23,859 nt of DNA from a virus: IMG/VR virus record IMGVR_UViG_3300042887_000888, positions 1-23,859 of that record; one strand, 5' to 3'. The notes beneath the pieces were generated by a model that worked only from the letters and a program-made list of their open reading frames with translations, did no database searches and was not told where the DNA came from. Shown here in pieces: positions 6,458 through 23,859 of this stretch. The first letter of the stretch is position 1; every line of letters starts with the position of its first letter. Made by a program: the position numbers and the translations under genes.

Positions 6458-8542
6458 TTAAAGAGCTGTTACTGGAGTACTTGCAGCACTTGCAGCACCA
6501 TCACCGATAGTATTTGTAGCAAATGCAGTAAATGTATAAGCCGTACCGGCAGTTAACCCTGTCACTGTAAGCGGTGAACCTTGACCAACTACAGTAATAT
6601 TACCTGGATTAGACACAACGGTGTAGTTAATAATTGCATCACCACCATCACTAAGTGGGATATCAAATGTTACATCAGCTTCTCCAGCATTAGCACCCAC
6701 CGCAGCTACTACATTAAGTGGAGCTGTAGGTACTGTTACTGGTGGCAATGTTGTTGTAGGAGCTACAGTTGTTGTAGGAGCTACGGTTGTTGTAGGAGCT
6801 ACGGTTGTTGTAGGAGCTACTTGTGGAGTTGCTGTTACACTAGCAGTACTGTATACACTATTACCTTGCGCGTTAGTTGCATACACTTGGAACGTATAAG
6901 CAGTACCGTTTGTTAATCCTGGAACAGTGATTGGTGATGCTACATCCGTAACTACTATATTGTCTGGATCTGAAATAACTGTGTACGCAGTAATTGGTGA
7001 TCCACCAGTATTAACCGGTGCAGTAAACACAACTTCAACTTCACCATCACCTGCTGTAACGCCAGTGATTGTAGGTACCCCTGGTAAGCCAACTGGAGTT
7101 ACTGGAGTACTTGCAGCACTTTCAGCACTATCGCCAACAGCATTTGTTGAGTGCATTGTAAATGTATATGCAGTACCATTAGTTAATGTAGAGAATAACA
7201 ATGGTGAACTAAACCCACTTGCAACAATATTACCAGGTGTTGAAGTAGCGGTGTATAATGTGATTGGGCTACCACTAGTATTTGCTGGAGTAGTAAATGT
7301 AATTGTCGCATCTGTATCACCAGCAACAACACTAGAAATAACCGGCACTGGTGGTAAAGATACAGGAGTTCTACTTGAACTTGCTGCGCTCACTACACTA
7401 CTACCAACAGCATTCACAGCACGCACAGTAAATGTATATGCTGTTCCGTTGGTTAAACCGTTTACAGTAATAGGTCCAACAGTGTCAGATGCTGTAAAGT
7501 TACCTGGTGATGCGGTAACAACATAAGATGTAATTGGACTACCACCATCTGATGTTGGAATTGAGAAGTCAATAGTTACCGCTCTGCTACCAGCAGTCGC
7601 GGTTGTAATAGTAGGTACACCTGGTACTGTCGCAGGAGTAACTGGGGTACTTGCAGCACTTGGTAGACTGAAGCCAACAACGTTCGCAGCTGACGCTGTA
7701 AATGTATACGGTGTACCGTTTGTTAAACCAGTAACAGTGATTGGTGATGTAGCACCGCCAGCCCAATGACCGTCATTTGATAGGATAGAATAAACCGATA
7801 CTGGTCTACGACCTGTATTAACTGGTGCGTGGAAATGAACAACCACTTCTCCATCACCTGGTATGGTTGAGTAAATAGCTGGCGCATCTGGTACTGTTGG
7901 AGCCAATGGTGTCGCACTTACACTAGCAGCACTAGCTGCACCGGTTCCAATAGCATTAATAGCACGTACAGTAAATGTATATGCAGTACCGTTTGTTAAA
8001 CCGCTTAATGTAATTGGTGAGGTTTTATCTGTCTGAGTTACGTTTCCAGGTTGTGAAGTTACTGTGTATCCAGTAATAGGGCTACGACCATTACTTGTCG
8101 GTGCAGTAAACCCAACTATCGCTACAGTATCATCAGCAGTCACAGTAGTAATAGACGGCGCACCAGGCGGTGTTTGAACAATTATTGGAATTTCTGATAC
8201 ACTTAACGCATATTCAACTGTAACTGGTGTTGCTGATGTAGTTGATATAGTGATTGGCACAACCGGTCCATCATATGCAAAGAATTTAGTTGATATTGTA
8301 TCAGTGTTATTAATCTTATACTCAACAAGTTGATCACTTGTAAATATACCTGTGGTTATACGACCTAATAGAATTGGATCTGTATGAACGTTAATGTCAA
8401 CCGATCCAACATTATAACTGCTGAACGGTATTTGAAAGTTGTTTGAAATTATTCGTGCGATAGTGCTTCGACCGGTTGATAATTCGGTCTTAATATCAGC
8501 ATTGAAGTCAATCACCAACGTAGTCGGATTATTAATTGCCAT
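6458..8542 (-). CDS. Virion surface protein with six fibronectin type III domains
   Basis: 694 residues. Residues 1-~120 form a unique N-terminal domain that I do not recognise, a candidate virion anchor. Six Fn3 domains follow at ~125-212, 217-303, 307-393, 397-483, 487-573 and 605-694. Each has the features P-x-x-P-x-I near its start, GGSPIT-x-Y in the middle, and SPITV-x-GLTNGTAYTFTV-x-A-x-N-x-x-G near its end. Domains 5 and 6 are separated by a Thr/Pro linker of repeated TTTVAP (575-603). Fn3 and Ig-like domains are common on phage tails and capsids, where they are thought to bind weakly to carbohydrate. This is the first gene of the operon, 18 bp upstream of the neck gene, so a neck or collar location is plausible but unproven. 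The start is supported by AGGA about 12 bases before the ATG. Confidence 0.88.
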   Translation of the reverse strand: MAINNPTTLVIDFNADIKTELSTGRSTIARIISNNFQIPFSSYNVGSVDINVHTDPILLGRITTGIFTSDQLVEYKINNTDTISTKFFAYDGPVVPITISTTSATPVTVEYALSVSEIPIIVQTPPGAPSITTVTADDTVAIVGFTAPTSNGRSPITGYTVTSQPGNVTQTDKTSPITLSGLTNGTAYTFTVRAINAIGTGAASAASVSATPLAPTVPDAPAIYSTIPGDGEVVVHFHAPVNTGRRPVSVYSILSNDGHWAGGATSPITVTGLTNGTPYTFTASAANVVGFSLPSAASTPVTPATVPGVPTITTATAGSRAVTIDFSIPTSDGGSPITSYVVTASPGNFTASDTVGPITVNGLTNGTAYTFTVRAVNAVGSSVVSAASSSRTPVSLPPVPVISSVVAGDTDATITFTTPANTSGSPITLYTATSTPGNIVASGFSSPLLFSTLTNGTAYTFTMHSTNAVGDSAESAASTPVTPVGLPGVPTITGVTAGDGEVEVVFTAPVNTGGSPITAYTVISDPDNIVVTDVASPITVPGLTNGTAYTFQVYATNAQGNSVYSTASVTATPQVAPTTTVAPTTTVAPTTTVAPTTTLPPVTVPTAPLNVVAAVGANAGEADVTFDIPLSDGGDAIINYTVVSNPGNITVVGQGSPLTVTGLTAGTAYTFTAFATNTIGDGAASAASTPVTAL
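6750..6821 (-). repeat. Four tandem 18-bp repeats encoding a TTTVAP linker
   Basis: Four consecutive copies of GTTGTTGTAGGAGCTACG (plus-strand reading) at 6750-6767, 6768-6785, 6786-6803 and 6804-6821 differ only in their last base. On the - strand each unit encodes six residues of a TTTVAP linker between Fn3 domains 5 and 6. The 18-bp period keeps the frame, so gain or loss of units would change only the linker length. Confidence 0.95.
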
Positions 8543-8571: not shown

Positions 8572-8579
8572 TATTTATC
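8572..8579 (-). promoter_or_regulatory. Candidate late promoter for the Fn3-neck-gp15 operon
   Basis: On the - strand this reads GATAAATA, one mismatch from the T4 late promoter core TATAAATA. It lies 30 bases upstream of the ATG at 8542, which would give a leader of roughly 25 nucleotides containing an AGGA ribosome binding site. It is the only gene-free stretch upstream of the four-gene operon. The AT-rich background makes such matches common, so position is the main support. Confidence 0.45.
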
Positions 8580-8649: not shown

Positions 8650-9771
8650 ATGGCGCTTTATCAGGTAACAAATTCAATAGTTTCTAATGTATTAGATTCA
8701 TTGGTTCCACTTTCTATGTTTACCACCAACTCTGTATCAGTGGTTGGGGACAATACCCATGGGCAATTAGGTGTAACTAATGGGAACTCTCTATCATCTG
8801 TACCTGATATCATTGATGCTGCACAAGTATCATGCGGCTCAACTCATACAGCAATTTTAAAAACTAATGGTACTGTGTTGGTTTCGGGTAGCAATCAATC
8901 CGGTGGATTAGGATTAGGGCCGAATGCTATTGCAACAACATTTCAACCGGTACTTAACGTTGCAAATATTAAAAATATTACTTGCGGGTATGCACAAACG
9001 TTTGCGGTAACGACCGATGGTGATTTATTAGCATGTGGTAGTAATGCAAACCGCACACTAGGATTTAGTGATTCTGCCAACTATAATTACTTCCAACCAG
9101 TTCCGAGTATATCTAATGTATCACAAATATCTGCTAATTCTACTCATGCAATCGCATTATTAGCTGATGGCACTATTATGGCTTGCGGTAGTAATGAGTT
9201 ACATCAATTAGGTCTAACTACAAGCGCAACCAGTTTTACTGCGGTTCCAGGTGTTACAGGCATCAAACAAGTTGTTTGTGGTGAATCACATACCGTGTTG
9301 TTGACAACAGCAGGTACTATTCTGGTAGCTGGGGATAACACATATGGACAACTAGGAATTACCGGAGCAAATGCTCAAGTATTTCAACAAGTTCCAGGTA
9401 TATCAAATATTAAGCAAATTGCATGTGGGGATAGACACACTGTATTATTATCAAACAGTGGTATGATTCATGTGTGTGGAAGTAATAATCAAGGTCAATT
9501 GGGATTGCGTGCACCGTTTACATCTACATTTAATACCTTTCAAACAAACACACTCGTAGCTAATATTAAGCAGATTGCGTGCGGTGCAAACTTTACCTCG
9601 GTGGTACTCGCTAATGGTACTGCGCTTGCATGTGGTGATACACGTTGGAAGCAATTAGGTACTGATCCAACTACCACTCGATCAGTGTTTAATATTATAT
9701 TAAATGCTACAAATGTAAAGAAAATAAGCTGTGGATTTAATTTTCAAGCGATACTAATACAAACGGTGTAG
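8650..9771 (+). CDS. RCC1-type seven-bladed beta-propeller protein (putative virion adhesin)
   Basis: 373 residues. After a ~28-residue N-terminal segment come seven copies of the RCC1 blade signature (small-C/S-G-x-N-x-x-G-Q-L-G): VVGDNTHGQLG, VSGSNQSGGLG, ACGSNANRTLG, ACGSNELHQLG, VAGDNTYGQLG, VCGSNNQGQLG and ACGDTRWKQLG. Each is followed about 30 residues later by I-K-Q-I-A-C-G-x-x-H-T-x-x-L. Seven blades is the number in eukaryotic RCC1, but the chromatin role is not implied. The start MALYQVTN resembles MAFYINNE of the paralogue at 11665-12780. No signal peptide or membrane segment is seen. The fibre-gene setting suggests a receptor-binding or virion-surface role (inference). It is the only fibre-region gene on the + strand, alone between a divergent promoter region and a convergent hairpin, so it is a single-gene transcription unit. 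Confidence 0.9.
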   Translation: MALYQVTNSIVSNVLDSLVPLSMFTTNSVSVVGDNTHGQLGVTNGNSLSSVPDIIDAAQVSCGSTHTAILKTNGTVLVSGSNQSGGLGLGPNAIATTFQPVLNVANIKNITCGYAQTFAVTTDGDLLACGSNANRTLGFSDSANYNYFQPVPSISNVSQISANSTHAIALLADGTIMACGSNELHQLGLTTSATSFTAVPGVTGIKQVVCGESHTVLLTTAGTILVAGDNTYGQLGITGANAQVFQQVPGISNIKQIACGDRHTVLLSNSGMIHVCGSNNQGQLGLRAPFTSTFNTFQTNTLVANIKQIACGANFTSVVLANGTALACGDTRWKQLGTDPTTTRSVFNIILNATNVKKISCGFNFQAILIQTV

Positions 9772-9778
9772 ACGCGTT

Positions 9779-9850
9779 TTCTCCATGGGATTTCAATGTA
9801 CCACTGTAGTTGTATTACTATAACTACAAACATTGGAGAGACATGGAGAA
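9779..9850. repeat. Nested inverted repeat (long hairpin) between convergent RCC1 genes
   Basis: Three nested stems fit one extended hairpin: TTCTCCATG (9779-9787) with CATGGAGAA (9842-9850); CAATG (9794-9798) with CATTG (9831-9835), extended by wobble pairs; and TGTAGTTGTA (9805-9814) with TATAACTACA (9819-9828), with one G·T pair and a TTAC loop. It fills most of the 97-bp gap between the stop codons of two convergent genes. Neither side has a T run, so it is not a typical intrinsic terminator. It could still stop or protect the 3' ends of both transcripts. Confidence 0.8.
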
Positions 9851-9868
9851 TTAACGGATTTTGATATG

Positions 9869-11029
9869 TTACACCCAACTAACTGGAGTTGTTAGACAGA
9901 CTATATTAAATGGTCCGCAAATTAATTGCTTAACATTCTTAAAGTTAGGGCTTTGTTTGAATGTGAATGTTTCAGTAACACCACTTATACCTAATTGACC
10001 ATTAGCGTTACTACCGCTTACTAATATTGTACCATCAGTATTCAATAACGCTATATGATTGGTACCTACTGCAACAGATTTAGGGTTAATTATAGTGTAT
10101 AGTCGGGTAAATGAACTTACATTCGTTGGATTTAACCCTAATCCTAATACCCCTCTAGTGCTCGTACCACTAACTAAAAATGCACCATCGTTTTTAATAA
10201 TGGCTGTCATTTTATCATTACACGCAACTTGTTTTACATTACTTATAGCGCCATAAGTAAATGTAGTGGTATTAGAACCATCACCAAATCCAAAAGCACC
10301 GGTATCATTATATCCACTTGCAAGCAGCCAACCAGTTGATGTAATTAGCATAGTGTGTCTTGCACTAGTCGCTATCTTTGATATTGGAAATTGAATATCA
10401 ACAGATTTAAATACAGATACTTTATTTGTATCACCTGTACCTAATTGACCATACTCGTTATTACCACATACCCACATTGCATTAGTGTCATCTAGTGCAA
10501 ATACATGATTTGGTCCACATGCTATCTGTGTGATATTAGATATAGGTACGTTATTGAACGTGTTAAATGAACCACCGCCGGCGACACCTAGTTGATCGTA
10601 GTAGTTATCACCACATGCCACTACAGTACCATCAAATTTTAATGCATATGTAAATCTTGCACCACATACTAGCTGCTTTACATTAGATAATAATGGAACT
10701 TGTTGGAATATTGAGAAATTCTGAACATTAGTACCTAACCCTAACTGACCATACTCGTTACTACCAACACCCCAAACTGTTCCATCGGATTTGACTACCA
10801 TTGTATGTCTTTCACCAACAGATACTTGTGAAACACTGGCGATATTTAACCGTTTAATTGCAGTAGTAGCAGAAAACTCACCTAGTTGCCCAAACTCACT
10901 ATTACCACATGCTTGCAACCCGGTATACAATCTATCAAGCTTATTACCCGGAAATGCATTTAACATATACTCTTGTGTTACATACCTAGATAATATATCA
11001 GCATTATTGTCGTAAAAACCTGAGGTCAT
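9869..11029 (-). CDS. RCC1-type seven-bladed beta-propeller protein, second paralogue
   Basis: 386 residues. An N-terminal segment of ~40 residues (NADILSRYVTQEYMLNAF) precedes seven RCC1 blades marked by QACGNSEFGQLG, GVGSNEYGQLG, ACGDNYYDQLG, VCGNNEYGQLG, ASGYNDTGAFG, VSGTSTRGVLG and VSGSNANGQLG; blades 5 and 6 have degenerate signatures. The I-T-Q-I-A-C-G-P-N-H type strands between the signatures are well kept. The ATG shares one base with the stop of the upstream DUF4376-like gene (TAATG), so translation is probably coupled. As last gene of the fibre operon it converges on the + strand RCC1 gene. Role by context: virion adhesin or fibre tip (inference). Confidence 0.9.
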   Translation of the reverse strand: MTSGFYDNNADILSRYVTQEYMLNAFPGNKLDRLYTGLQACGNSEFGQLGEFSATTAIKRLNIASVSQVSVGERHTMVVKSDGTVWGVGSNEYGQLGLGTNVQNFSIFQQVPLLSNVKQLVCGARFTYALKFDGTVVACGDNYYDQLGVAGGGSFNTFNNVPISNITQIACGPNHVFALDDTNAMWVCGNNEYGQLGTGDTNKVSVFKSVDIQFPISKIATSARHTMLITSTGWLLASGYNDTGAFGFGDGSNTTTFTYGAISNVKQVACNDKMTAIIKNDGAFLVSGTSTRGVLGLGLNPTNVSSFTRLYTIINPKSVAVGTNHIALLNTDGTILVSGSNANGQLGISGVTETFTFKQSPNFKNVKQLICGPFNIVCLTTPVSWV

Positions 11030-11664: not shown

Positions 11665-12780
11665 TTAATATTGTAATAACACGGTGTGCGATTGTCCTAC
11701 AGCCGCTTGTTTTATATTAGCGGTACCTGTAACTAACTGAAATGTTTTATATGTGCCGGTAGGTAAACTCTGCTGCCCACTATTAACACCAGTGAACCAG
11801 ACAGTTCCGTCAGCTTTAACTAATGTGGTTGATTTAGGTACACAGTACGCATATTTTACATTTGAACTAGTATTCAATGCGGTAAATACAGTATACGCTG
11901 ATGCCGTATCACCCATGCCTAGCTCACCATCGTAGTTTAGCCCACTAACTAATATCGATCCATCAGTTTTAACTATAACTGTATGTGTTTCACACGTGCT
12001 GACGTATTTTACATCTGCAATATCTGGCACCTGTGCAAAGCTACCTAATTGATCTATATTTACACCTAGTTGCCGATACCCGTTTAGTCCAGTTACATAT
12101 ACTAACCCGTCATGACTTAGTGCTATTGTATGGTTTTTACCACATGCAATACTTCTTATATTTGATATTCCAGCTATTGCTGTAAACGTTGTTGCTACTA
12201 CCGCACTACATTGACCAAATGCATTCGATCCACTTGCAAACAAAGTACCATCTTGTTTTAATACAATCGTGTGAGAAGCTCCGCATGCAACTTGTTGCAC
12301 ATCGTGCATTCCATCAACTAAGGTGAATGATGTAATGTTGTCACCCTCAACCCCAAGTTGTCCAAAGTTGTTACGACCACACACTAACAAACGATTGTCA
12401 TTAGTAATAGCAAACGTACTGCTATTACTACAAGTAACACGCTTAATATTAAACCCAACCCCTGAAATTTGCGGAGATACAAATTGCGCAGCAGGTGAAC
12501 CTACACCTAATTGACCGTTACTGTTGTCACCGTATGCAAGCACACTACCCGTAGCTTTAACTACTAATGTATAATTAGGTCCAGCAGCAACCTGCTGGAC
12601 GTTATTAATATCGGGTACAATCCGATATTGTGACTGTGGGTCAGTGTTACTTAGCCCCAATTGACCAAAAGTATTTAACCCACAGGTTAGTAAGGTGTTG
12701 CAGCTAACCCATTTATCAACTAATTCATACTCAGTGATAAATTGATTAGCTAATGTTTCATTGTTTATATAAAACGCCAT
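11665..12780 (-). CDS. RCC1-type seven-bladed beta-propeller protein, third paralogue
   Basis: 371 residues with seven RCC1 blade signatures: TCGLNTFGQLG, AYGDNSNGQLG, VCGRNNFGQLG, ASGSNAFGQCS, VTGLNGYRQLG, VSGLNYDGELG and FTGVNSGQQSL; the last has lost the Gln-Leu-Gly end. Between them run V-Q-Q-V-A-C-G-A-S-H-T-I-V-L type strands. The N-terminal ~30 residues (MAFYINNETLANQFITEYEL) resemble those of the other two paralogues and may form a common attachment segment (inference). It begins one base after the stop of the 2234-residue fibre gene (TAACATG), so the two are probably co-translated and may act together at the fibre end. Confidence 0.9.
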   Translation of the reverse strand: MAFYINNETLANQFITEYELVDKWVSCNTLLTCGLNTFGQLGLSNTDPQSQYRIVPDINNVQQVAAGPNYTLVVKATGSVLAYGDNSNGQLGVGSPAAQFVSPQISGVGFNIKRVTCSNSSTFAITNDNRLLVCGRNNFGQLGVEGDNITSFTLVDGMHDVQQVACGASHTIVLKQDGTLFASGSNAFGQCSAVVATTFTAIAGISNIRSIACGKNHTIALSHDGLVYVTGLNGYRQLGVNIDQLGSFAQVPDIADVKYVSTCETHTVIVKTDGSILVSGLNYDGELGMGDTASAYTVFTALNTSSNVKYAYCVPKSTTLVKADGTVWFTGVNSGQQSLPTGTYKTFQLVTGTANIKQAAVGQSHTVLLQY

Positions 12781-12781
12781 G

Positions 12782-15700
12782 TTATTTTCCTTCTAACATT
12801 GCAACACGTTCGTTTAATTGCTGAATATTAGCTAATAAGATCGATATAATCTCAACATAGTTAACAGATTTAAATCCATCTACTGTAGATACTAACGATG
12901 GTAATATTTTTTCTACATCTTGAGCTATTAACCCATAATGAGTGTTATTACCCTCATCTGCAGTAAATGTAAATGTTTTTGGTGCCAAGCTATTAACTAA
13001 ACTTGGAACATCAAATGATTTAGTTAAATCTGCAATATTACGTTTTAGTTGTTCATCAGATGTTGAGTAGAAATTAGTTGCATATAAACTACCATCTGTT
13101 GTACGTTTTGCTGTTGTGTTAGGATCAGCTGCTACTGAACTTGAGCCTGCACCACTCTCTTGCCAACTCGCTGTTGTTGGAGTATCTAACGTTAATACTT
13201 GACCAATGGTACCAACACCTTCAACTTTAACATTATTGATGTAATTAACGTTAAGGTTACTTACTAGTGTAGTTGATGTTACCTGTAATGGTGCTGTACC
13301 TTGAGCTACATTGGATATAAATGCAGGTGCTGTTTGATTACCAGTGTATGTGTTTGCAGTAGTACCTGCAACAGCTGCACTTGATGCCGAAATAACCCGA
13401 CCTTTAGTGTCTACCGTTACTGATGTATAAGTACCTGCTTCAATACCGGTTGGTGCTAATGTTAGGTTAGCTGTACCACCGACTGATAATACATCACCAC
13501 CAGTGAAGATTGGAATTTGTGCAACAGTTAAGTGTTTATCAGCATCTAACCCAGCAGTTCCGCTTGCAGCACCAATAGAGCTCAATAATAGTATTTCTGG
13601 ATTAGTACCAGCAGATACTCTACCTTTATTATCTACAGTTACTGATGTATACGTACCTGCAGTAACTCCAGTTAACGGTAAGTAATCAGATGAGATCTTA
13701 CGCTCTGCACTTAATGCGGCTACACCACTCACCGCATCAATTTTAGATACATTAATTGAGTCTGTTATACCATATCCAGCTAATGTAGTAGGATTGTTTG
13801 CAGCTATTACACGACCTTTAGCATCTACTGTGACTGATTTATATGTACCAGCAGCAACACCAGTTGCAGATAGCACCATATTAAGTGATCCAGGCACATT
13901 AGTTACATCACCTAAGAACCCTGGTACTTGGTTTGTAGTTAATGATCCACCACTAGTTAATGTTGCAACACCGCCAACAGCACCTAGTCTGCTAGTATTA
14001 ACAACGTCGGTAATACCATATCCTGCCATAGTGGTTGGATTAGTTGCATTAATAACTCGACCTTTTGCGTCTACTGTAACAGATCGATACGTACCTGCTA
14101 CAACACCACTGTTAGCTAATGATATAGATCCAGATCCAGCTGTTGAGCGTAAATCACCTGATAGTGCAGGTAATATGCTAGTTGTTAAATACCCGTTGTT
14201 TAGTGTAACGTATTGTGTATTTTGTGCAGCAGTAACTCGACCTGCTTCATTTACTGTAACTGTATTGTATGTACCTGCTGTTACAATAGATGGAGATACT
14301 AGATCAATATCTGCATAAGTTATGGTTAATACATTACCAGTTTGACCATTAACAGAGATAACTGAACCACCGCCACCACCTGGTGCTTGCATTTGAACCC
14401 AATCTTCTAATACGGTTGGGTCACTTGATGCTAAAATGTAGGTTGCTCCAGCAGTGCCACCAACAATCGCCATTGCACCTTGAGTAGCTGTTAACGCAGG
14501 ACTACCTTCAGCGATAATGCTGTCTTTTGATGCATCAGTCTCAAAGAATGTAAAGATTTGTGATACAGATATTGCTGGAATTAAGCTAGTATTGATCTTT
14601 CCATCCATACCAACGGTTACTAATTTTGAGGTACCGTCGTCGTTATCAGGTAATCTCGATGTTGATAAGATGTCTAATATACCTAATTCAGCAGCTGTTG
14701 TTGGTTTTGATCCTTGTATTACTAGACCTTTACTGTTAACTGTAACTAATGTATAATCATCAATTTCACCAACGGTTAAGCTATTTACACCAGTATCCTG
14801 CAATGCAAATTGGTTCTCAACATTTGGATCCAAAATAACATCACCAGTAGTTAAATTTGGTAGCTGTGTTACATCTAGTCTACCGGTTATGTCTGCCATC
14901 GTTAATGTAACTGATCCAGTTTTACCGTTAATTTGTGATACAGTAGCAGATGCTGATAATTCTACCCAGTTATTATCATCAGATGGACCAGGTTGTGCTA
15001 AGATGTATGATTTATTAATAGTACCTAATACGATTGCAATATCACCTACAGTAGCCGATAATTCATTACGTGCTTGTAATGTGGTTACAACATTCTGTCT
15101 ATTAATCACTAATTGTGGTAAATATGCTGCATCAATTTTACTGTTTGCGTTTAATCCAGCGTAACCATTTGGTGCATTTTTAATACCACTATCAGCTTTT
15201 GCTAAGAATGTGCTATCAATCTGCTCCTTAGTGTATCCAGCTGATGATGTTCCGGATACCACTATACCTTTACTGTTTACTTTAATAGCTGTATACGTTG
15301 CAGATGTATCAAGACCCGGTACTGTTTTAAGTACAATAGAATTTGATCCATTTATAGATGTTACATCACCGGTGAATGCAGGTAATTGCGCAGCTGCTAA
15401 TACTGAATCAACTGTTAATCCAGCGTAACCGTTTGCAGCATTTTTATGACCACTTTCGGTTAGGTTTGTAAATCTTTCATCAGACTCAACTTTATTATAT
15501 ACCGGATTTGTGGTTCCTGATATTACACGACCTTTAATATCAACATTAACCGATGTGAACGGTAATGATGTGTCTAAACCAACTATAGTTTTTAATGTAA
15601 TTGAATTAGAACCATTTGCAGATGTAACATCACCGGTCATAAACGGTAATTGCGCTGCATCGATATATCCGTTAGTGTTTAATCCAACATACCCGTTTGC

Positions 15701-18700
15701 AGCATTTTTGGCTCCAAGATCGACCTGCTTAACGTACCGTTGGTCAGCATCAACCTGTGTCATTCCACCTGCTGTTGAACCTGAAACAACAATACCTTTT
15801 TCATTTACTTGAATAGCTGTATATGTAGCTGCTGGATCTAATCCAGTGATGGTGTTTAATGATAATGTATTAGTACCTTCAACCGAAGTAATATCACCAG
15901 CAAACGCAGGTAATCTAGCAGCTAACAATGGTTTAGCTGGTTTAGTATTATCAAACATATCATTGGTGTCTTCTGGTATGATTTTACCAATAACCCCAGT
16001 TTTTCCATTGATAGTAATAACGTGGTCTGTTGGAACGTTTAATAACGTCCAACCAGCTTGAGACATTACATACGTTTCGTTTGTTGCTGCAATAACCGCC
16101 ACTGTACCAATTTGAGCATCTGTTATTGCTTGCATATCTAAAACAGTTGCAGGTGTTAATGTACCTGTTAATGATATAGCAGGGATTAAACCAGCAGGTA
16201 ACATGCCATTCGAGTCGGTACGCACCACTGATGCAGGTAATCGATCTAAACTCAAAGTACCAGTTGTTATCTTACTTGCACTAATTTCTGTAATATCGTC
16301 TGCAGTTAATGCTGATGTGCCAGTGATCAAACCTTCAGTATTATACGTAACTTTTACTGCAGTACCTGCAGTAACACCAGGACCTTTAGGTACTTTTGCA
16401 TCTAATGCATCTGATAGCCCGTCTATATCACTTACTAAATGAGTATGCGCTAATGGTGGTCTGTTATCTGTTAAACGCTCATCATTAGACAATACCAAGA
16501 AATTAGTTAATATGTCAGCATTTGGTGGTAATGCTGATACATGAATAACATCGGTTAATGTATCGGAAATTGTAGATAACCTATTATCGACATATGTTTT
16601 TACAGCTAATTGTGTCGGATATTTCGTGTTGTTTGCTTCAACACCATCTAATAAAATATTAGATGATTTATTAATTATACTTTCAGGTGCATTACCATCT
16701 TCAACCAATACCATCAAATCTCTATCTGAGATTTTTATAAATTTATCATCAATGGTTGCGGTGTGTACTAATTGATAGTTTTCAAATTGCACATCTGTAA
16801 ATAGTGCGCGATATAGTGCCCACTTATCGTCTCCGTCGTTAATTACATAGATGTTAGTTGGTAGTGTTTCAACAACATACTCATTACGTGCAGTAATATC
16901 TGTTACTGTTACCTCGTGCTGACTAGCACGAATTAAATCATATAATGCGTTTAAGTTGTTACCCTCGGTTGGCACATTATTTTTAATTGCTGTTACAGCT
17001 AAATCAACAGCTGATTGGACCATAGGTACAGTTACTTTAGTAGCTAAGATATCAGATAATCCTGTGATATCTGTTAAATCTAGTGTATCTTCACCTGCCG
17101 TTACACGTCCATATCTATCTACGGTTACTTTTTTATATCTACCTGCCGTTACACCTGATAGTGGTAGCATAGTAGTTTCTAATACACCAGATGTAATTTT
17201 ACTTAATGGTAAATTAGGAATATCAGATAATGCCAGGCTATTTTCAGAACTAACTACTAGTCCGCGGTTGTCATATGTAATTTTAATACCGGTTGCAGGA
17301 ACTATCGAAGGTGGTTCACGCATAGCATCAGTAATACCATATCCTTCTAATGTAGTGGGATTAGAACCAGTTACAATTCGGCCAGATCCATCAACTTCTA
17401 CTTTAGTATATGTGTGCTCACTAGCACCTACCGCTGGCAACATGCTTGCTGTAAAACGACCGGTTGTAATTTTACTTGCATCCAAGCTTGGAATATCAGT
17501 TGCATCAAGCGCAGTAACACCTGCCGTGACCCGACCGTATTCATCTGCTTTAACTTTAACATATGTGCTAGTTGTGTTAACACTGACAGTAGGTAATAAT
17601 TCTTGGGCAAAAACCCCAGACGTGATTTTACTTGCGTCAAATTCCGGAAAATCAGATGCAACTAATGAAGAGCTGCCAGTTACTAACCCATGTTGGTTGT
17701 ATGTAATCTTAACACCCGTACCTGGGGTTACTGCAACCGGTATAGCTAATTTTGTATCTGCATATGCTTTAACCGCTTTTTGTGATGGATACTTAATATC
17801 ACTATTAGCAAATAAGGTTGGATCTGTATCTTTATTATTAGTACCTTCTGGTGTATAACCTAATGCAGTGTTTAATAAATCTGGATCAGAAAGTTTAACG
17901 ACGTTAGCATCAATTGCTAATCCAAGTGATAGCGCTTTATATAACGCCCAATTACCATCACCATCATCAATTACAAATATATTGGTTGGTAATGATGATA
18001 CATTTAAGGTTTGACGTGCCGCAGTATTAGCAACCGTAATCTCATGATTACTCGATAATATTAAATTGTATAATTTATTAAATGTATCTGCACTTGAATC
18101 GACACCATCTTTAATTACATCAATAGCGTCGGTAATATCTGATAATATAGCTTTTCCAGATAATTCACCAATTAATCCAGGAATATCAGTCATAGCTAAT
18201 GCATCTACACCAGCTGTTATTCTACCTTTATTATCAGTGGTTACCTTATAATAGCTACCCGGTGTTACACCAGTGGTTGGTAACATATCTGCGTTTAGTA
18301 TACCTGTTTTAATTTTACTTATATCTAAATCTGGGATATCTGATGCAGTTAGATCGTATGATGCAATAATTAACCCTTTATTATCCCATTCTACTTTAGA
18401 GCTAGTACCTGGCGATACCGGTACATTGGCTTGCATAGCATCAGTAATGCCATAGCCCGCTAAAGTAGTAGGATTTTCACCAGCAATTACACGACCAGTC
18501 TTATCTACTAATACTTTGGTGTAGTTCCCAACAGCTAATGTTTCAATAAACGGTAAGAAGTTAGCTGAGAACCGACCGCTAGTGATAATACCTGCATCTA
18601 ATTGAGGAATATCAGCTGCAACTAATGCACTAGACGATAACACCAACCCGTTAGCATCATATGATACTTTAATCCCGGTACCAGCGGTAATTGGAGTATT

Positions 18701-19486
18701 TGGACGCATAGCATCCGTAATACCATATCCTGTTAGTGTAGTAGGATTTTCTCCTGATGTTACCCGGCCAGTGCCATCTACATTTACTTTAAAGTATGAT
18801 GTTACAGTGTCACCTAATAACGGTAACTGTGTATCTGTTATTTTGCCGATTAGTTTAGTGGTGTGTATATCCGGAATATCTGATTCCAGCAATGTATTTG
18901 ATGAGGATAGCACTAGGCCTTTGGCATCGTATGTAACCTTAATGCCTGTACCTGCAGTAATGCTTGTATTTTTTTGAATTGCGTCGGTTATGCCAAATCC
19001 TGCTAACGTGGTAGCTGTTTCACCACTTACAATGCGTCCATTAGCGTCAACATATACTTTATTATATGTATATGCGGTCGCACCAATAGTAGGCAATTGA
19101 GCAGCTGTTATCTGACCGGTTAATTTAGTAGTTGGTATGGCAGGAATATCATCTAATGATAGCGCAGTAGAACTTAGCACTAATCCTTTACTATCATATG
19201 TAATCTTGGTACCAGTACCAGCTACAATTGCAGTATTTTTAACTAATCCATCAGTAATACCGTACCCGGCTAATGTTGTTGGGGGTGGACTATACGGCTC
19301 AGTATCTAAACCGTATTGCCAAACGGTGCCATCGTATACGTATACACCTTTTTGACCGGTAGTCTGCCAAACAATCTCACCGACATCTAAATTTGTTAAA
19401 GCTGCTTTACCGCTTTCAGTAACAACCGGTAGAACAAGATTAGTAGTGACTGAACCTTCTAGGAACTGTAAACCATCTGTTAACAT
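12782..19486 (-). CDS. Giant long tail fibre with C-terminal S74 intramolecular chaperone
   Basis: 2234 residues, the largest complete gene here. Residues ~30-58 carry a GEIVWQTTGQKGVYVYDGTVW motif. The body is built from fibre repeats: seven TLAGYGITDA-type units (lambda Stf-like phage fibre repeat), many GTGIKVTYDAKGLVLSS, SKITSG...MLP and KVTVDKTGRVTAGEN-type units, three INGKTG segments, two KYPTQLAVKTYVDNRL segments and one AHTHLVSDIDGLSDALDAK segment. Such repeats form trimeric beta-rich shafts. The last 92 residues are a peptidase S74 chaperone: SDEQLKRNI, then HYGLIAQDVEKILPSLV and a coiled-coil-like end. Ser2143 and Lys2148 have the +5 spacing of the Ser-Lys dyad in endosialidase-type chaperones, so self-cleavage just before Ser2143 after trimer folding is expected. 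A GAGGAT ribosome binding site lies 7 bases before the ATG. It is the first gene of the fibre operon. It should recognise the host surface, but the receptor is unknown. Confidence 0.92.
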   Translation of the reverse strand: MLTDGLQFLEGSVTTNLVLPVVTESGKAALTNLDVGEIVWQTTGQKGVYVYDGTVWQYGLDTEPYSPPPTTLAGYGITDGLVKNTAIVAGTGTKITYDSKGLVLSSTALSLDDIPAIPTTKLTGQITAAQLPTIGATAYTYNKVYVDANGRIVSGETATTLAGFGITDAIQKNTSITAGTGIKVTYDAKGLVLSSSNTLLESDIPDIHTTKLIGKITDTQLPLLGDTVTSYFKVNVDGTGRVTSGENPTTLTGYGITDAMRPNTPITAGTGIKVSYDANGLVLSSSALVAADIPQLDAGIITSGRFSANFLPFIETLAVGNYTKVLVDKTGRVIAGENPTTLAGYGITDAMQANVPVSPGTSSKVEWDNKGLIIASYDLTASDIPDLDISKIKTGILNADMLPTTGVTPGSYYKVTTDNKGRITAGVDALAMTDIPGLIGELSGKAILSDITDAIDVIKDGVDSSADTFNKLYNLILSSNHEITVANTAARQTLNVSSLPTNIFVIDDGDGNWALYKALSLGLAIDANVVKLSDPDLLNTALGYTPEGTNNKDTDPTLFANSDIKYPSQKAVKAYADTKLAIPVAVTPGTGVKITYNQHGLVTGSSSLVASDFPEFDASKITSGVFAQELLPTVSVNTTSTYVKVKADEYGRVTAGVTALDATDIPSLDASKITTGRFTASMLPAVGASEHTYTKVEVDGSGRIVTGSNPTTLEGYGITDAMREPPSIVPATGIKITYDNRGLVVSSENSLALSDIPNLPLSKITSGVLETTMLPLSGVTAGRYKKVTVDRYGRVTAGEDTLDLTDITGLSDILATKVTVPMVQSAVDLAVTAIKNNVPTEGNNLNALYDLIRASQHEVTVTDITARNEYVVETLPTNIYVINDGDDKWALYRALFTDVQFENYQLVHTATIDDKFIKISDRDLMVLVEDGNAPESIINKSSNILLDGVEANNTKYPTQLAVKTYVDNRLSTISDTLTDVIHVSALPPNADILTNFLVLSNDERLTDNRPPLAHTHLVSDIDGLSDALDAKVPKGPGVTAGTAVKVTYNTEGLITGTSALTADDITEISASKITTGTLSLDRLPASVVRTDSNGMLPAGLIPAISLTGTLTPATVLDMQAITDAQIGTVAVIAATNETYVMSQAGWTLLNVPTDHVITINGKTGVIGKIIPEDTNDMFDNTKPAKPLLAARLPAFAGDITSVEGTNTLSLNTITGLDPAATYTAIQVNEKGIVVSGSTAGGMTQVDADQRYVKQVDLGAKNAANGYVGLNTNGYIDAAQLPFMTGDVTSANGSNSITLKTIVGLDTSLPFTSVNVDIKGRVISGTTNPVYNKVESDERFTNLTESGHKNAANGYAGLTVDSVLAAAQLPAFTGDVTSINGSNSIVLKTVPGLDTSATYTAIKVNSKGIVVSGTSSAGYTKEQIDSTFLAKADSGIKNAPNGYAGLNANSKIDAAYLPQLVINRQNVVTTLQARNELSATVGDIAIVLGTINKSYILAQPGPSDDNNWVELSASATVSQINGKTGSVTLTMADITGRLDVTQLPNLTTGDVILDPNVENQFALQDTGVNSLTVGEIDDYTLVTVNSKGLVIQGSKPTTAAELGILDILSTSRLPDNDDGTSKLVTVGMDGKINTSLIPAISVSQIFTFFETDASKDSIIAEGSPALTATQGAMAIVGGTAGATYILASSDPTVLEDWVQMQAPGGGGGSVISVNGQTGNVLTITYADIDLVSPSIVTAGTYNTVTVNEAGRVTAAQNTQYVTLNNGYLTTSILPALSGDLRSTAGSGSISLANSGVVAGTYRSVTVDAKGRVINATNPTTMAGYGITDVVNTSRLGAVGGVATLTSGGSLTTNQVPGFLGDVTNVPGSLNMVLSATGVAAGTYKSVTVDAKGRVIAANNPTTLAGYGITDSINVSKIDAVSGVAALSAERKISSDYLPLTGVTAGTYTSVTVDNKGRVSAGTNPEILLLSSIGAASGTAGLDADKHLTVAQIPIFTGGDVLSVGGTANLTLAPTGIEAGTYTSVTVDTKGRVISASSAAVAGTTANTYTGNQTAPAFISNVAQGTAPLQVTSTTLVSNLNVNYINNVKVEGVGTIGQVLTLDTPTTASWQESGAGSSSVAADPNTTAKRTTDGSLYATNFYSTSDEQLKRNIADLTKSFDVPSLVNSLAPKTFTFTADEGNNTHYGLIAQDVEKILPSLVSTVDGFKSVNYVEIISILLANIQQLNERVAMLEGK

Positions 19487-19493
19487 TTATTAT

Positions 19494-19570
19494 ATCCTCT
19501 ATACATTTTAATCCGGGCATTAACATAAGTTATGTTTAATTAACCAGTATTTATAAAATGTGTAGAGGAT
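19494..19570 (-). promoter_or_regulatory. Inverted repeat enclosing a late promoter and the fibre gene's ribosome binding site
   Basis: ATCCTCTATACATTTTA (19494-19510) and TAAAATGTGTAGAGGAT (19554-19570) are inverted copies pairing at 16 of 17 positions (one A·C mismatch in - strand RNA). The left arm contains the Shine-Dalgarno (AGAGGAT in RNA sense) of the 2234-residue fibre gene. The right arm ends at the late promoter core. A smaller palindrome, AACATAA-G-TTATGTT (19522-19536), lies in the loop. RNA reading through from the upstream gene would hold both arms and could fold over the ribosome binding site. RNA started at the late promoter would lack the upstream arm. No T run follows, so an intrinsic terminator is unlikely. 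Confidence 0.7.
19548..19555 (-). promoter_or_regulatory. T4-type late promoter of the fibre operon
   Basis: On the - strand the sequence is TATAAATA, the exact core of T4 late promoters, which are read by host RNA polymerase carrying the phage late sigma gp55 and coactivator gp33. It lies 62 bases before the fibre ATG in the only gap in this region; transcription would start near 19542. Several exact 8-mers are expected by chance in 24 kb of such AT-rich DNA, so the intergenic position is the main support. Confidence 0.65.
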
Positions 19571-19579
19571 TGATATAGC

Positions 19580-22500
19580 TTATGTCCCTTCGGCTACAAC
19601 ACCAGTATTATCATATAAGTAAAACTTATCATTTGCTGTTACTAGTCCAGTCCAGTTTTTAGATACCGGTAATGCTGATGCAGTCCAGGTAATACCGTCT
19701 GCGGAATATAACGAAACTGTGCTACCTGATACGGATGCAACAAATAAGTTTTTACCAAATATTAATTTGTTCCACGCTTGAGATTGCGGCAATGTTGCGG
19801 TTAACCAAGTAATACCATCAGTTGAGTAGTTTACTGCTGTGCTACCTGATGTAATAGTAACAAATCTACCATTACCAAACGCAATGTACGATGGTGCAGC
19901 CGCTAATGTACGTGTTGTCCATGTTGGTGCTGTAATCGTTCCACGTGAATATGCACAGTTCGTTGAATTAGTAATTATTACCCATGTACTATTACCGTAT
20001 GCGATACCTATCCAAGTACCACCTGGTAAACTAGTGCTAGCCCATGTTATAGCATCAGCTGAAGTATACATTAAAGTATTTGCAAAGTTAAATGTTGCAA
20101 AGTATCCACCACCGTATATCATATTAGTGTTAATACCGGTACCTCCAGCAACATTTGATGTTGCCCATGCCGCTCCACCGGTTGTACTATAACATAACAC
20201 TGTACCAGATACAATGACAAATCGATTATTACCATATACGATTTTTTGCCATGATTGTGTAGATGGTAGTGTACTTGCTACCCAGTTGTATCCGTCTGTT
20301 GAACTAACTACCGTGGAATTTGATGTGCCGATATATGGTGAGATGTATACCCCGTTCCCATACACTGGTGCAATATTGTTTGTTGCATTAACGATACCTT
20401 TAGTTACACGTTGCGCTGCAATGCGTGGACCATCACTTACGGTATAATAAACCCCATTATCTCGGAAATATCCAAACATTACAAATCCTGGCGGACCGTA
20501 TGCCATAGCATTCGTATACCATGTGGGGTTATTACGGCTTAAACTCACCCACGATACAAGATCAGTAGAGTATGCTGTATACGTGCTATTTCCACGATAT
20601 AATACTCTAAACTGACCACCACCGTATGCAATCACGTTAACAGTGTTAGGTGGCCCAGCTATTGTACTCCAGGTAACACCATCACGTGAAACATATAATT
20701 TATTATTATATGAACACGGCACGACAAATAAACCATTGCCAAATGCAATTGATATACATGTACTGTTTGTTGTAGGTGTTATAGCGGATGTGTTCCATGT
20801 GATACCATCAGCTGAATACGCAAACGTATCAGAGTTACCAACAGCAACAAACACTCCATTACCAAACGCAATACTTTGCCAGTATTGTGTAGTACTTGGC
20901 ATAGTAACTTCAGTCCAGGTAGTTCCATTCGTTGAATATGCAGTTTTTGATGTACCTACCGCAACGAATGTGTTGTTACCGTATGCAACACCAACCCAAT
21001 TTGCATTACTTGGCATAGTTGTACTAGTCCACGATAATCCATCCGTTGAATAACCTGCTGTTGCTGTGCCAGTGCCAACCGCAACACCATATGTATTACC
21101 GTAAACTGTGTACCAAGTAGACGCTGTAGGCATTGCGTAATTTGATATAACAGTCCAGCTGGTAAGGTTTGTTGATTTTGCAACTGCACCGGCTGCTCCG
21201 GTAATAATGTAGGTAGCATTAGCAGTATCGTATGCGATTCCACTCCATGTACCGGCAGGTAGTGTAAATTGAGTCCAGTCTGACATATTTCTACGAATAA
21301 GGTAGTTAGTAGAAGATACTGTACCAAACCCAAAGAATCCACCATTTGCAGATCGAATCGTCCATGTACCTGCTGGTAGCGACGCAGACCATGCCCAGTT
21401 TGTACCGTCAGTTGATGTAACCGACGCCTGTGCTGATGCAAAATACATCATTAATACAGTGTTCGTGTTATTTGAATGGAATGTTACTGTGCCGGTCATC
21501 GGTAAAGTTCTAGCAGTCCATGACGCGCCATAATTTGTAGATGTGTAATATTGTGTAGTCGATGTGGTGGCCGCTACCAGTCCCATACTACCACCAGCCT
21601 GTGAGTTAAACGTGTATCCACCTGACATAGTAGTGTTTAGTGAATCTGCTTGACCAGTAAAATTATAACTAACACCATATCCTGCAGATCCAATACATAC
21701 TACTGAGTTTACTATTGAAACCCAGTTAAATGAGCCACCTGAATATGAGTTATCTATATATTTCCAGGTAATACCATCTCTAGATATATTAGCAAATTGA
21801 TGCGAATTGTAATATGATGCGGTGGCTACAAAGTACCCGTATGTTGCATCATATTTTAAATCTGTAAACCCGTACGAAGATGTTCCTACACCAATACACG
21901 GACTCCACGCAACACCGTCGTAGCTATAGTATAAGTTAGCCATGTATGATGATGTATCTGCAGCAACAAACACCCCAGCACCGTATATGCATCGTGCATA
22001 TGTATTTGCAGTTGGTAATCCAGCGTTAAACCATTGGTATCCGTTTGTTGAGAATATCAACTTAGAAGAAGCATTTTCAACCGCAAGATACTTATCATTA
22101 AAATAGGAAACCCATGGTATTGTACTAGATCCAGTACCTGGTAGTAAAGTGTCCCGCCAGTAATTATTAGTCATCGCATTTGATGTGTCTGGCACAATCA
22201 TATCAACGTACCCATTACCAGCGGCATGTATTATTTTTGTGTTATCTGTAGTATTCCAAAGAGATGTTGTAGTGATAATATACGCATTGCGGTCGTAATT
22301 ATACAAGGATAATGGTAGTGAGCTCTGACCTGGATTATTTGCACGCCATATCCATCTAGAACCATCGGTTGAAATATAATAACCTGATATATCGGAGCGT
22401 GGTATTAGAATATACCATGAGTTAACATAGTGTAAAAACCAACCATTGGCTGAGTTTGTAAGCCCGGTGCTTACAGAGAAAGTATTATTGATTTTAACCC

Positions 22501-23859
22501 CAGCGTTGCTTAACGTGTAGCCATAACCGTTACTGATCTGTGAGTTATCAATCGCTGGATCAGGTACTGGTGAAATACCTGCGGTCCAACCTGTGCTATA
22601 TGGCGATGTCGGTCCACTACGTGCACCATCACTAGTGTAAAAATATCCACCGTAGTACCACGTAGACTTTGCACCATTCCCTGTATTATACTTACTAAAT
22701 GACGTCCATGACGCACCACCGTTTGTAGAATATGCACCGTTTGGTCCACTGTAATCATCAAACGACATCCATACACCGTTACCGTACGCTGGTGTACACC
22801 AGAATCCGACAGATGGCATGTTCATTGCTGACCATGTGATACCGTTTGATGAATATGCACCTAACTGATACCTGTTGTTGTGTGCCGAGTCTTTAGGTAC
22901 CAATATGTATTGCGATCCGTTGTATGCAATTTCACCCGCCCAGTAGCTGTTGGGTAGGGTCATTACGTTCCATGTAATCCCATCATTAGAATAACCACCT
23001 ACCGTACCACTGTAAGGTAGTACTCGATACACCCCACCAATATATGATATTTTAGTACCAACCACTGTACCAACATTCGTACATGCAGTCCATATTAAAC
23101 CATCGGTAGAATACCAATAACTACCACTGCTTTGTACCACAACATACTTATCACTACCTCGTACAATTGATGTAAATCCATTAAGCCCATATGGTGTATT
23201 TGCAATCCAGCTAATACCAGTACCTGCAGTAGACTTAGTTCCAACCCGACCTGGTACAGTGAATGTCGATGAATATCGTGATACACCTAGTGTTATTCTA
23301 AAATCATCGAGGTACCCGGTACCTGTATAATTTGCGGTACCTGGCATATTACTAAAGATACTCATCATTGTAGCTAACGAATAATCAGTTGAATCAGTTA
23401 CACTACCTTGCGTAGCGCCATCCACAAACGCTTGAACTGTTCCGTTATTTCGAGCTACAGCAATATGAGTCCATGTATTTAAATTAACGGTAGATGTACC
23501 TGTTAAATATGGTGCAGATCCCATCTTTCCAACTACTAACTTGTTACCTACGATACCAATATATGGATAACCTGTAACCATATTTGATAGTATATACGTA
23601 CCTGAGGTGCCGTGCGCAGTAATATACACCCAACAATCTACAGTAAAGTTAGTAGATGAGAAGCGTAATGTGTCGCTAGCTGGTATGTTAATATACGAAC
23701 TACCGTTAAAGTAAGTACTACCTGTGCCCCACTTATTTGCACCAATAGATGCAACAGCACCAGTTGATAATAGCAATCTTTTGTAATTACTTAAATCTGT
23801 TGGCTGTGTAGCATTTGGCACAATATCACTATTCAGCAATAGCGCTACATACGACCAGA
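19580..23859 (-). CDS. Giant adhesin, LamG-like domain plus Asp-box-like beta-propeller repeats; N-terminus missing
   Basis: The frame is open to the right edge (reading WSYVALLLNSD into the window), so the start lies outside; the TTG at 23839 is internal. About 1425 residues are visible. The first ~200 form a concanavalin/laminin G-like domain: YFNGSSYINIPASDTLRFSS, FTVDCWVYI, NTWTHIAVARNNGTVQAFVD and YLDDFRI. The rest holds about 23 repeats of ~45 residues with an Asp-box-like loop (YSTDGITW, YSADGITW, STNGGASW) followed by a W-x-x-I-A-Y-G-N-G-x-F-V-A-V strand. This is the pattern of BNR/sialidase-like propellers, enough for about three seven-bladed rings. No catalytic sialidase residues were identified, so binding rather than cleavage is likelier. 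It lies directly upstream of the long fibre gene on the same strand and is probably a virion adhesin (inference). Confidence 0.85.
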   Translation of the reverse strand, partial: WSYVALLLNSDIVPNATQPTDLSNYKRLLLSTGAVASIGANKWGTGSTYFNGSSYINIPASDTLRFSSTNFTVDCWVYITAHGTSGTYILSNMVTGYPYIGIVGNKLVVGKMGSAPYLTGTSTVNLNTWTHIAVARNNGTVQAFVDGATQGSVTDSTDYSLATMMSIFSNMPGTANYTGTGYLDDFRITLGVSRYSSTFTVPGRVGTKSTAGTGISWIANTPYGLNGFTSIVRGSDKYVVVQSSGSYWYSTDGLIWTACTNVGTVVGTKISYIGGVYRVLPYSGTVGGYSNDGITWNVMTLPNSYWAGEIAYNGSQYILVPKDSAHNNRYQLGAYSSNGITWSAMNMPSVGFWCTPAYGNGVWMSFDDYSGPNGAYSTNGGASWTSFSKYNTGNGAKSTWYYGGYFYTSDGARSGPTSPYSTGWTAGISPVPDPAIDNSQISNGYGYTLSNAGVKINNTFSVSTGLTNSANGWFLHYVNSWYILIPRSDISGYYISTDGSRWIWRANNPGQSSLPLSLYNYDRNAYIITTTSLWNTTDNTKIIHAAGNGYVDMIVPDTSNAMTNNYWRDTLLPGTGSSTIPWVSYFNDKYLAVENASSKLIFSTNGYQWFNAGLPTANTYARCIYGAGVFVAADTSSYMANLYYSYDGVAWSPCIGVGTSSYGFTDLKYDATYGYFVATASYYNSHQFANISRDGITWKYIDNSYSGGSFNWVSIVNSVVCIGSAGYGVSYNFTGQADSLNTTMSGGYTFNSQAGGSMGLVAATTSTTQYYTSTNYGASWTARTLPMTGTVTFHSNNTNTVLMMYFASAQASVTSTDGTNWAWSASLPAGTWTIRSANGGFFGFGTVSSTNYLIRRNMSDWTQFTLPAGTWSGIAYDTANATYIITGAAGAVAKSTNLTSWTVISNYAMPTASTWYTVYGNTYGVAVGTGTATAGYSTDGLSWTSTTMPSNANWVGVAYGNNTFVAVGTSKTAYSTNGTTWTEVTMPSTTQYWQSIAFGNGVFVAVGNSDTFAYSADGITWNTSAITPTTNSTCISIAFGNGLFVVPCSYNNKLYVSRDGVTWSTIAGPPNTVNVIAYGGGQFRVLYRGNSTYTAYSTDLVSWVSLSRNNPTWYTNAMAYGPPGFVMFGYFRDNGVYYTVSDGPRIAAQRVTKGIVNATNNIAPVYGNGVYISPYIGTSNSTVVSSTDGYNWVASTLPSTQSWQKIVYGNNRFVIVSGTVLCYSTTGGAAWATSNVAGGTGINTNMIYGGGYFATFNFANTLMYTSADAITWASTSLPGGTWIGIAYGNSTWVIITNSTNCAYSRGTITAPTWTTRTLAAAPSYIAFGNGRFVTITSGSTAVNYSTDGITWLTATLPQSQAWNKLIFGKNLFVASVSGSTVSLYSADGITWTASALPVSKNWTGLVTANDKFYLYDNTGVVAEGT

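Follow-up and report, generated by a model that had tools for sequence, protein, structure and literature searches.

A hairpin predicted to tie translation of a giant phage tail-fibre gene to its own late-type promoter

A giant tail-fibre gene in the genome of a large uncultivated bacterial virus has its Shine-Dalgarno (SD) sequence in one arm of a 17-bp inverted repeat, the other arm of which meets a late-type promoter core. We consider it probable, with somewhat better than even confidence, that this stem restricts fibre translation to RNA begun at the gene's own NATAAATA promoter. Polymerase entering from the upstream gene would produce RNA with both arms, in which the 17-bp stem would bury the SD, whereas RNA initiated at the promoter would start in the loop, lack the 5' arm and leave the SD free. 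The main consequence would be that fibre output no longer follows transcription from upstream, and an effect on timing would follow only if part of the read-through RNA is early. All positions refer to the window, that is, the whole stretch of 23,859 nucleotides that was analysed.

The fibre gene leader and its inverted repeat

The fibre gene (12782-19486, minus strand) encodes 2234 amino acids with a C-terminal Peptidase_S74 chaperone. The gene upstream of it (19580-23857, minus strand) is adhesin-like, with a Laminin_G_3 domain and repeats, and is open at the window end; it is probably structural, and it is a possible source of read-through RNA into the fibre leader. A gap of 93 nt on the minus strand separates its stop codon (19580) from the fibre ATG (19486-19484), and no intrinsic terminator was found in 19300-20000 by the criterion of a GC-rich, short-loop hairpin with a U-run. 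Read-through, which we infer, is thus supported by a same-strand upstream gene and by a gap in which no terminator was found.

The 3' arm, TAAAATGTATAGAGGAT (19494-19510, minus strand), is followed by ATAATAAATG and contains the SD-like AGAGGA (19495-19500, minus strand) 8 nt ahead of the ATG. Its partner, the 5' or anti-SD arm ATCCTCTACACATTTTA (19554-19570, minus strand), is predicted to be present in read-through RNA only. The arms pair at 16 of 17 positions, leave one C.A mismatch and enclose a 43-nt loop, which confirms at 19570-19554/19510-19494 the original prediction of a 17-bp repeat with one mismatch and the fibre SD in one arm. An exact match to the late-type promoter core, TATAAATA, lies at 19548-19555 (minus strand) and shares two bases with the 3'-terminal end of the 5' arm, so that the claim that this arm ends where the promoter begins is true to within 2 nt. 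The spacing typical of T4 late promoters would place the transcription start at about 19542 (minus strand), within the loop.

This arm pair is the window's sole repeat of 17 nt with at most one mismatch and a loop of 20-60 nt, and repeats of that quality occurred in none of 100 dinucleotide-shuffled whole windows. When the 55 nt 5' of the predicted start were shuffled 4000 times, 3 of the shuffles reached SD occlusion as strong as the native. Folded alone, the element has an energy of -23 to -24 kcal/mol, compared with about -9 to -12 kcal/mol for shuffles (folding z -4.2 to -6.1). Both the inverted repeat and the SD occlusion exceed chance. For read-through RNA the computed cost of opening the SD is 12.8 kcal/mol, and for promoter-started RNA it is 1.7 kcal/mol; removal of the 5' arm leaves the SD region essentially open; folding with and without the upstream arm therefore agrees with the earlier proposal that RNA carrying both arms could hide the SD and that RNA from the promoter would not. 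Since an adhesin ribosome at termination would touch only the outermost part of the 5' arm, the stem should survive upstream translation.

Other features of the window were recorded around the fibre module, which is flanked by three related RCC1-repeat (beta-propeller) genes at 8650-9771 (plus strand), 9869-11029 (minus strand) and 11665-12780 (minus strand). The two that converge have between them a long imperfect palindrome, TCTCCATG...TTGTAGTTatagtaatacAACTACA...CATGGAGA (9775-9865), which is probably a two-way terminator. A second promoter-like core, GATAAATA (8572-8579, minus strand), occurs 37 nt 5' of a gene for a 694-aa minor tail protein (8542), and is without an SD-hiding stem.

Promoter motif, relatives and upstream context

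The octamer TATAAATA shows no enrichment in the window, where it occurs 2 times against 4.8 expected from shuffles, and it is its placement there, not its frequency, that carries weight. A 65-kb relative (G005) has 28 NATAAATA sites, of which 18 fall between genes, each of the 18 at most 110 nt 5' of the start of a gene on the same strand. In a de novo count of 8-mers, the top motif was ATAAATAT in that relative, AATAAATA in RAS14 and TATAAATA in T4. Genes for gp55-family late sigma factors are present in XacN1 and RAS14, distant relatives that are ~40% identical in a neighbouring structural protein; any corresponding gene of the window lineage is out of view because the window is a 23.9-kb virus record and the close contigs are fragments. 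Judged by the directional and intergenic distribution of its sites in relatives, and by gp55 in XacN1 and RAS14, NATAAATA is a genuine promoter motif in the window lineage.

A megablast search of a phage collection returned no near relative of the window. The same fibre start was found in two IMG/VR contigs, L015/G001 and L016/G005, and when viral sequences were scanned twice more for motifs of the leader and SD, these two and no others were recovered. Most of 80 fibre N-terminal matches were rejected as relatives since they align to repeats, and two of the 80 that were read (L025 and L056) were rejected because they have a different gene start. In L015 and L016 the 3' arm departs from that of the window at only one or two of its 17 positions. 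L015 keeps the stem, as ATTCTCTATACATTTATAAATA ... TTTAAATGTATAGAGGAT: relative to the window, one C has become a U facing G (a wobble), the C.A mismatch has become a U-A pair, and where the 5' arm has lost one U, the 3' arm shows a matching A-to-U change. In native form the stems of the window and L015 have energies of -18.6 and -19.7 kcal/mol, against -16.2 and -18.0 kcal/mol when the arms are swapped, and the probability that the stem would survive an equal number of random changes is 0.003-0.023. L016 has a promoter-like core, the SD and nearly the same leader, but its upstream sequence differs and has no 5' arm; its stem is unstable (-6.9 kcal/mol), and opening the SD costs 2.7 kcal/mol in the long RNA and 2.1 kcal/mol in the short. 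The search for compensatory change in relatives thus gave a divided answer, with a stem kept by two-sided change in L015 and a 5' arm absent from L016, and the latter implies that the switch is optional.

Conservation of the stem is weak evidence, since there are two stem-bearing sequences only, which share 83% identity over the whole gap. These data bear on a neutral explanation, by which the SD arm is conserved as an SD, with an accidental complement in the 5' arm that L015 has passively inherited. The missing arm in L016 suits this account, as do the frequency of hairpins before genes in these genomes and the gap identity, at which some retention is expected anyway; against it stand the shuffles reported above (0/100 windows and 3/4000 upstream segments) and the differences between the window and L015 arms, which keep or restore pairing. 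We regard chance as unlikely.

The fibre genes of the window, of L015 and of L016 have three different upstream contexts. The window has the adhesin-like gene; L015 has small ORFs, in a gene run whose first gene is tail-fibre-like and has its own NATAAATA upstream; and the L016 fibre gene follows genes located after the major capsid gene, which also has its own NATAAATA. The readable upstream genes look late too. This context does not favour the original prediction of a late-only switch, in which early or middle read-through RNA hides the fibre SD and late transcription frees it. Such a switch has a geometry equal to that of T4 e, 49 and I-TevI, all recovered by the survey described below, but those upstream genes that can be read are structural and, in two relatives, have NATAAATA promoters of their own, and the adhesin gene extends past the window end, so that any early promoter it possesses is out of view. 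We therefore consider a strictly late-only switch unlikely. Because the upstream genes look late, what governs fibre output is most likely the gene's own promoter and not the time of infection, and translation from own-promoter RNA only is most likely the better description.

Promoter segments matched to their own leaders

When NATAAATA starts were compared with motif-free starts by shuffling, the difference was not significant. Several of the motif-free 'control' starts carry other promoter-like sequences in the same geometry, and a swap test was adopted for this reason. The 50 nt 5' of each predicted start were joined to the gene's own leader and to the leaders of other genes, the comparison leaders being drawn from the same class and genome; same-strand genes with a promoter were considered, and z >= 2.5 was scored as a match. 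Strong matches at divergent gene pairs (G002/G007, and T4 76885 and 77385) were set aside, since the SDs of two divergent genes are by construction complementary. U-run hairpins before starts (for example RAS14 208261 and XacN1 152082), which are terminator-like and overlap the promoter, were excluded from the final test. Hairpins of this kind at RAS14 208261-208665 and XacN1 118033-118455 have ATAAATA or TATAAATA in the loop or arm just before the start codon, and possibly represent a terminator and a promoter overlapped in one element.

Among 60 late promoters from T4, XacN1, RAS14 and the window lineage, 10 matched their own leader, compared with 2.1 expected (p 2.5e-4), and a far-upstream control segment (-110 to -61) gave 0 against 1.2 expected. 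T4 contributed three late matches, namely e, I-TevI and 46382-46855, the last of which we take by position and length to be gene 49; since all three are known cases, the test can be considered calibrated. The original prediction had cited e, soc and I-TevI as sharing this logic, and the swap test bears this out for e and I-TevI but does not reach soc. The window fibre gene scored z 3.9, and the window lineage alone gave p 0.06. Further late matches, in XacN1 and RAS14, are new cases. The highest-scoring among these that we describe is XacN1 ORF384 (2823 codons, annotated GDPD; z 11.6), a few genes past the ribonucleotide reductase genes. There, a 12-bp perfect stem surrounds a late-type promoter at AP018399 272140-272205 (L166 6141-6206), TTGAGAAGTTCA...AATAAATA...TGAACTTCTCAATG, and is computed to hide the ORF384 start region (20.9 vs 3.5 kcal/mol). 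The giant-gene site in RAS14 retains the promoter and synteny of XacN1 but not the stem. Matches at XacN1 131899 and RAS14 194369 have PHROG 15511 in common, with different stems.

Early-type promoters also exceeded expectation, with matches at 13 of 115 against 3.4 expected (p 2.5e-4), a count to be taken with caution as this class was defined by a loose motif. T4 accounted for 7 matches among its 35 early promoters, with 0 in the far-upstream control, and RAS14 showed little excess (1/40). The T4 (AF158101) matches, in which the 5' arm lies within or beside the promoter, include regB (62279-62740), gene 55 (39600-40157), 7661-8161, 12507-13130 and 122742-123032. Separately, the start of RAS14 OP752703 191919-192863 carries an 18-nt stem over SD and AUG, ATTTGGCCGTTGTGTATC...TATAAT...GATACACAATGGCCAAAT, with a sigma70-like -10 in the loop.

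The repeat could act in some other way, as a DNA site for a repressor at the promoter, as a site where RNase III processing of read-through RNA would free the SD, or as a 5' stem that stabilises the RNA. A 17-bp stem across a promoter is compatible with any of these roles, yet the SD falls within the 3' arm, and promoter segments in T4-type phages are matched to the ribosome binding site (RBS) of their own gene, which neither an operator nor a stabilising stem would need; we judge these roles improbable. As for the wider pattern, we tentatively suggest, while thinking it less probable than our reading of the fibre gene itself, that own-promoter-only translation is a general control layer in large T4-type phages. 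Anti-SD sequences just upstream of many early and late promoters, each matched to its own leader, would then let genes ignore read-through RNA, with the fibre gene as one case and the 2823-codon XacN1 gene as the strongest.

Relation to known hairpin controls

In T4, genes e, soc, 49 and I-TevI have an RBS-hiding hairpin in the longer RNA, with a late promoter within it (PMC3014915, PMC2988022). The window resembles them in having the SD in the 3' arm, the 5' arm ahead of the late start, NATAAATA at or beside the 5' arm, and, according to computed folds, late-promoter RNA that is free. It differs in that its gene encodes a giant fibre, whereas the T4 genes are lysis, small capsid, nuclease or homing genes; in that upstream genes of the window lineage look late rather than early; in a loop which, at 43 nt, is longer than in the T4 late matches; and in a longer leader, the promoter standing 69 nt before the ATG compared with about 27-50 nt for most others. 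RBS-hiding hairpins also guard homing endonucleases in early or middle units, as in Aeh1 mobE, T4 segB and I-TevII/III (PMC2988022). There too the RBS is hidden in upstream-initiated RNA and a promoter is nearby, although the gene guarded in the window is a fibre gene. Comparable logic is found in the fold-back inhibition of IS10, where the transposase RBS is hidden in RNA entering from outside but not in RNA that the element's own promoter produces; IS10 is a transposon that employs its end sequence, unlike the window case, a phage gene with a gp55-type promoter. The fibre element probably works like, and belongs to, the T4-type control by late promoter and RBS hairpin. The suggestion that it extends this control to a major structural protein holds for the giant fibre gene itself, but was somewhat overstated, since soc, a capsid protein, is already listed under it (PMC3014915).

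Sequence alone thus predicts, for a major structural gene of a large uncultivated bacterial virus, a hairpin device known from a few T4 genes. The survey rule, an anti-SD in the promoter segment, blindly finds known T4 cases and predicts new ones that are testable in laboratory strains, among them the regB promoter and other early promoters of T4. If the inferred effect on translation is true, a control so far seen at a few T4 genes would also guard one of a jumbo phage's largest structural genes, for which wasted synthesis would be costly.
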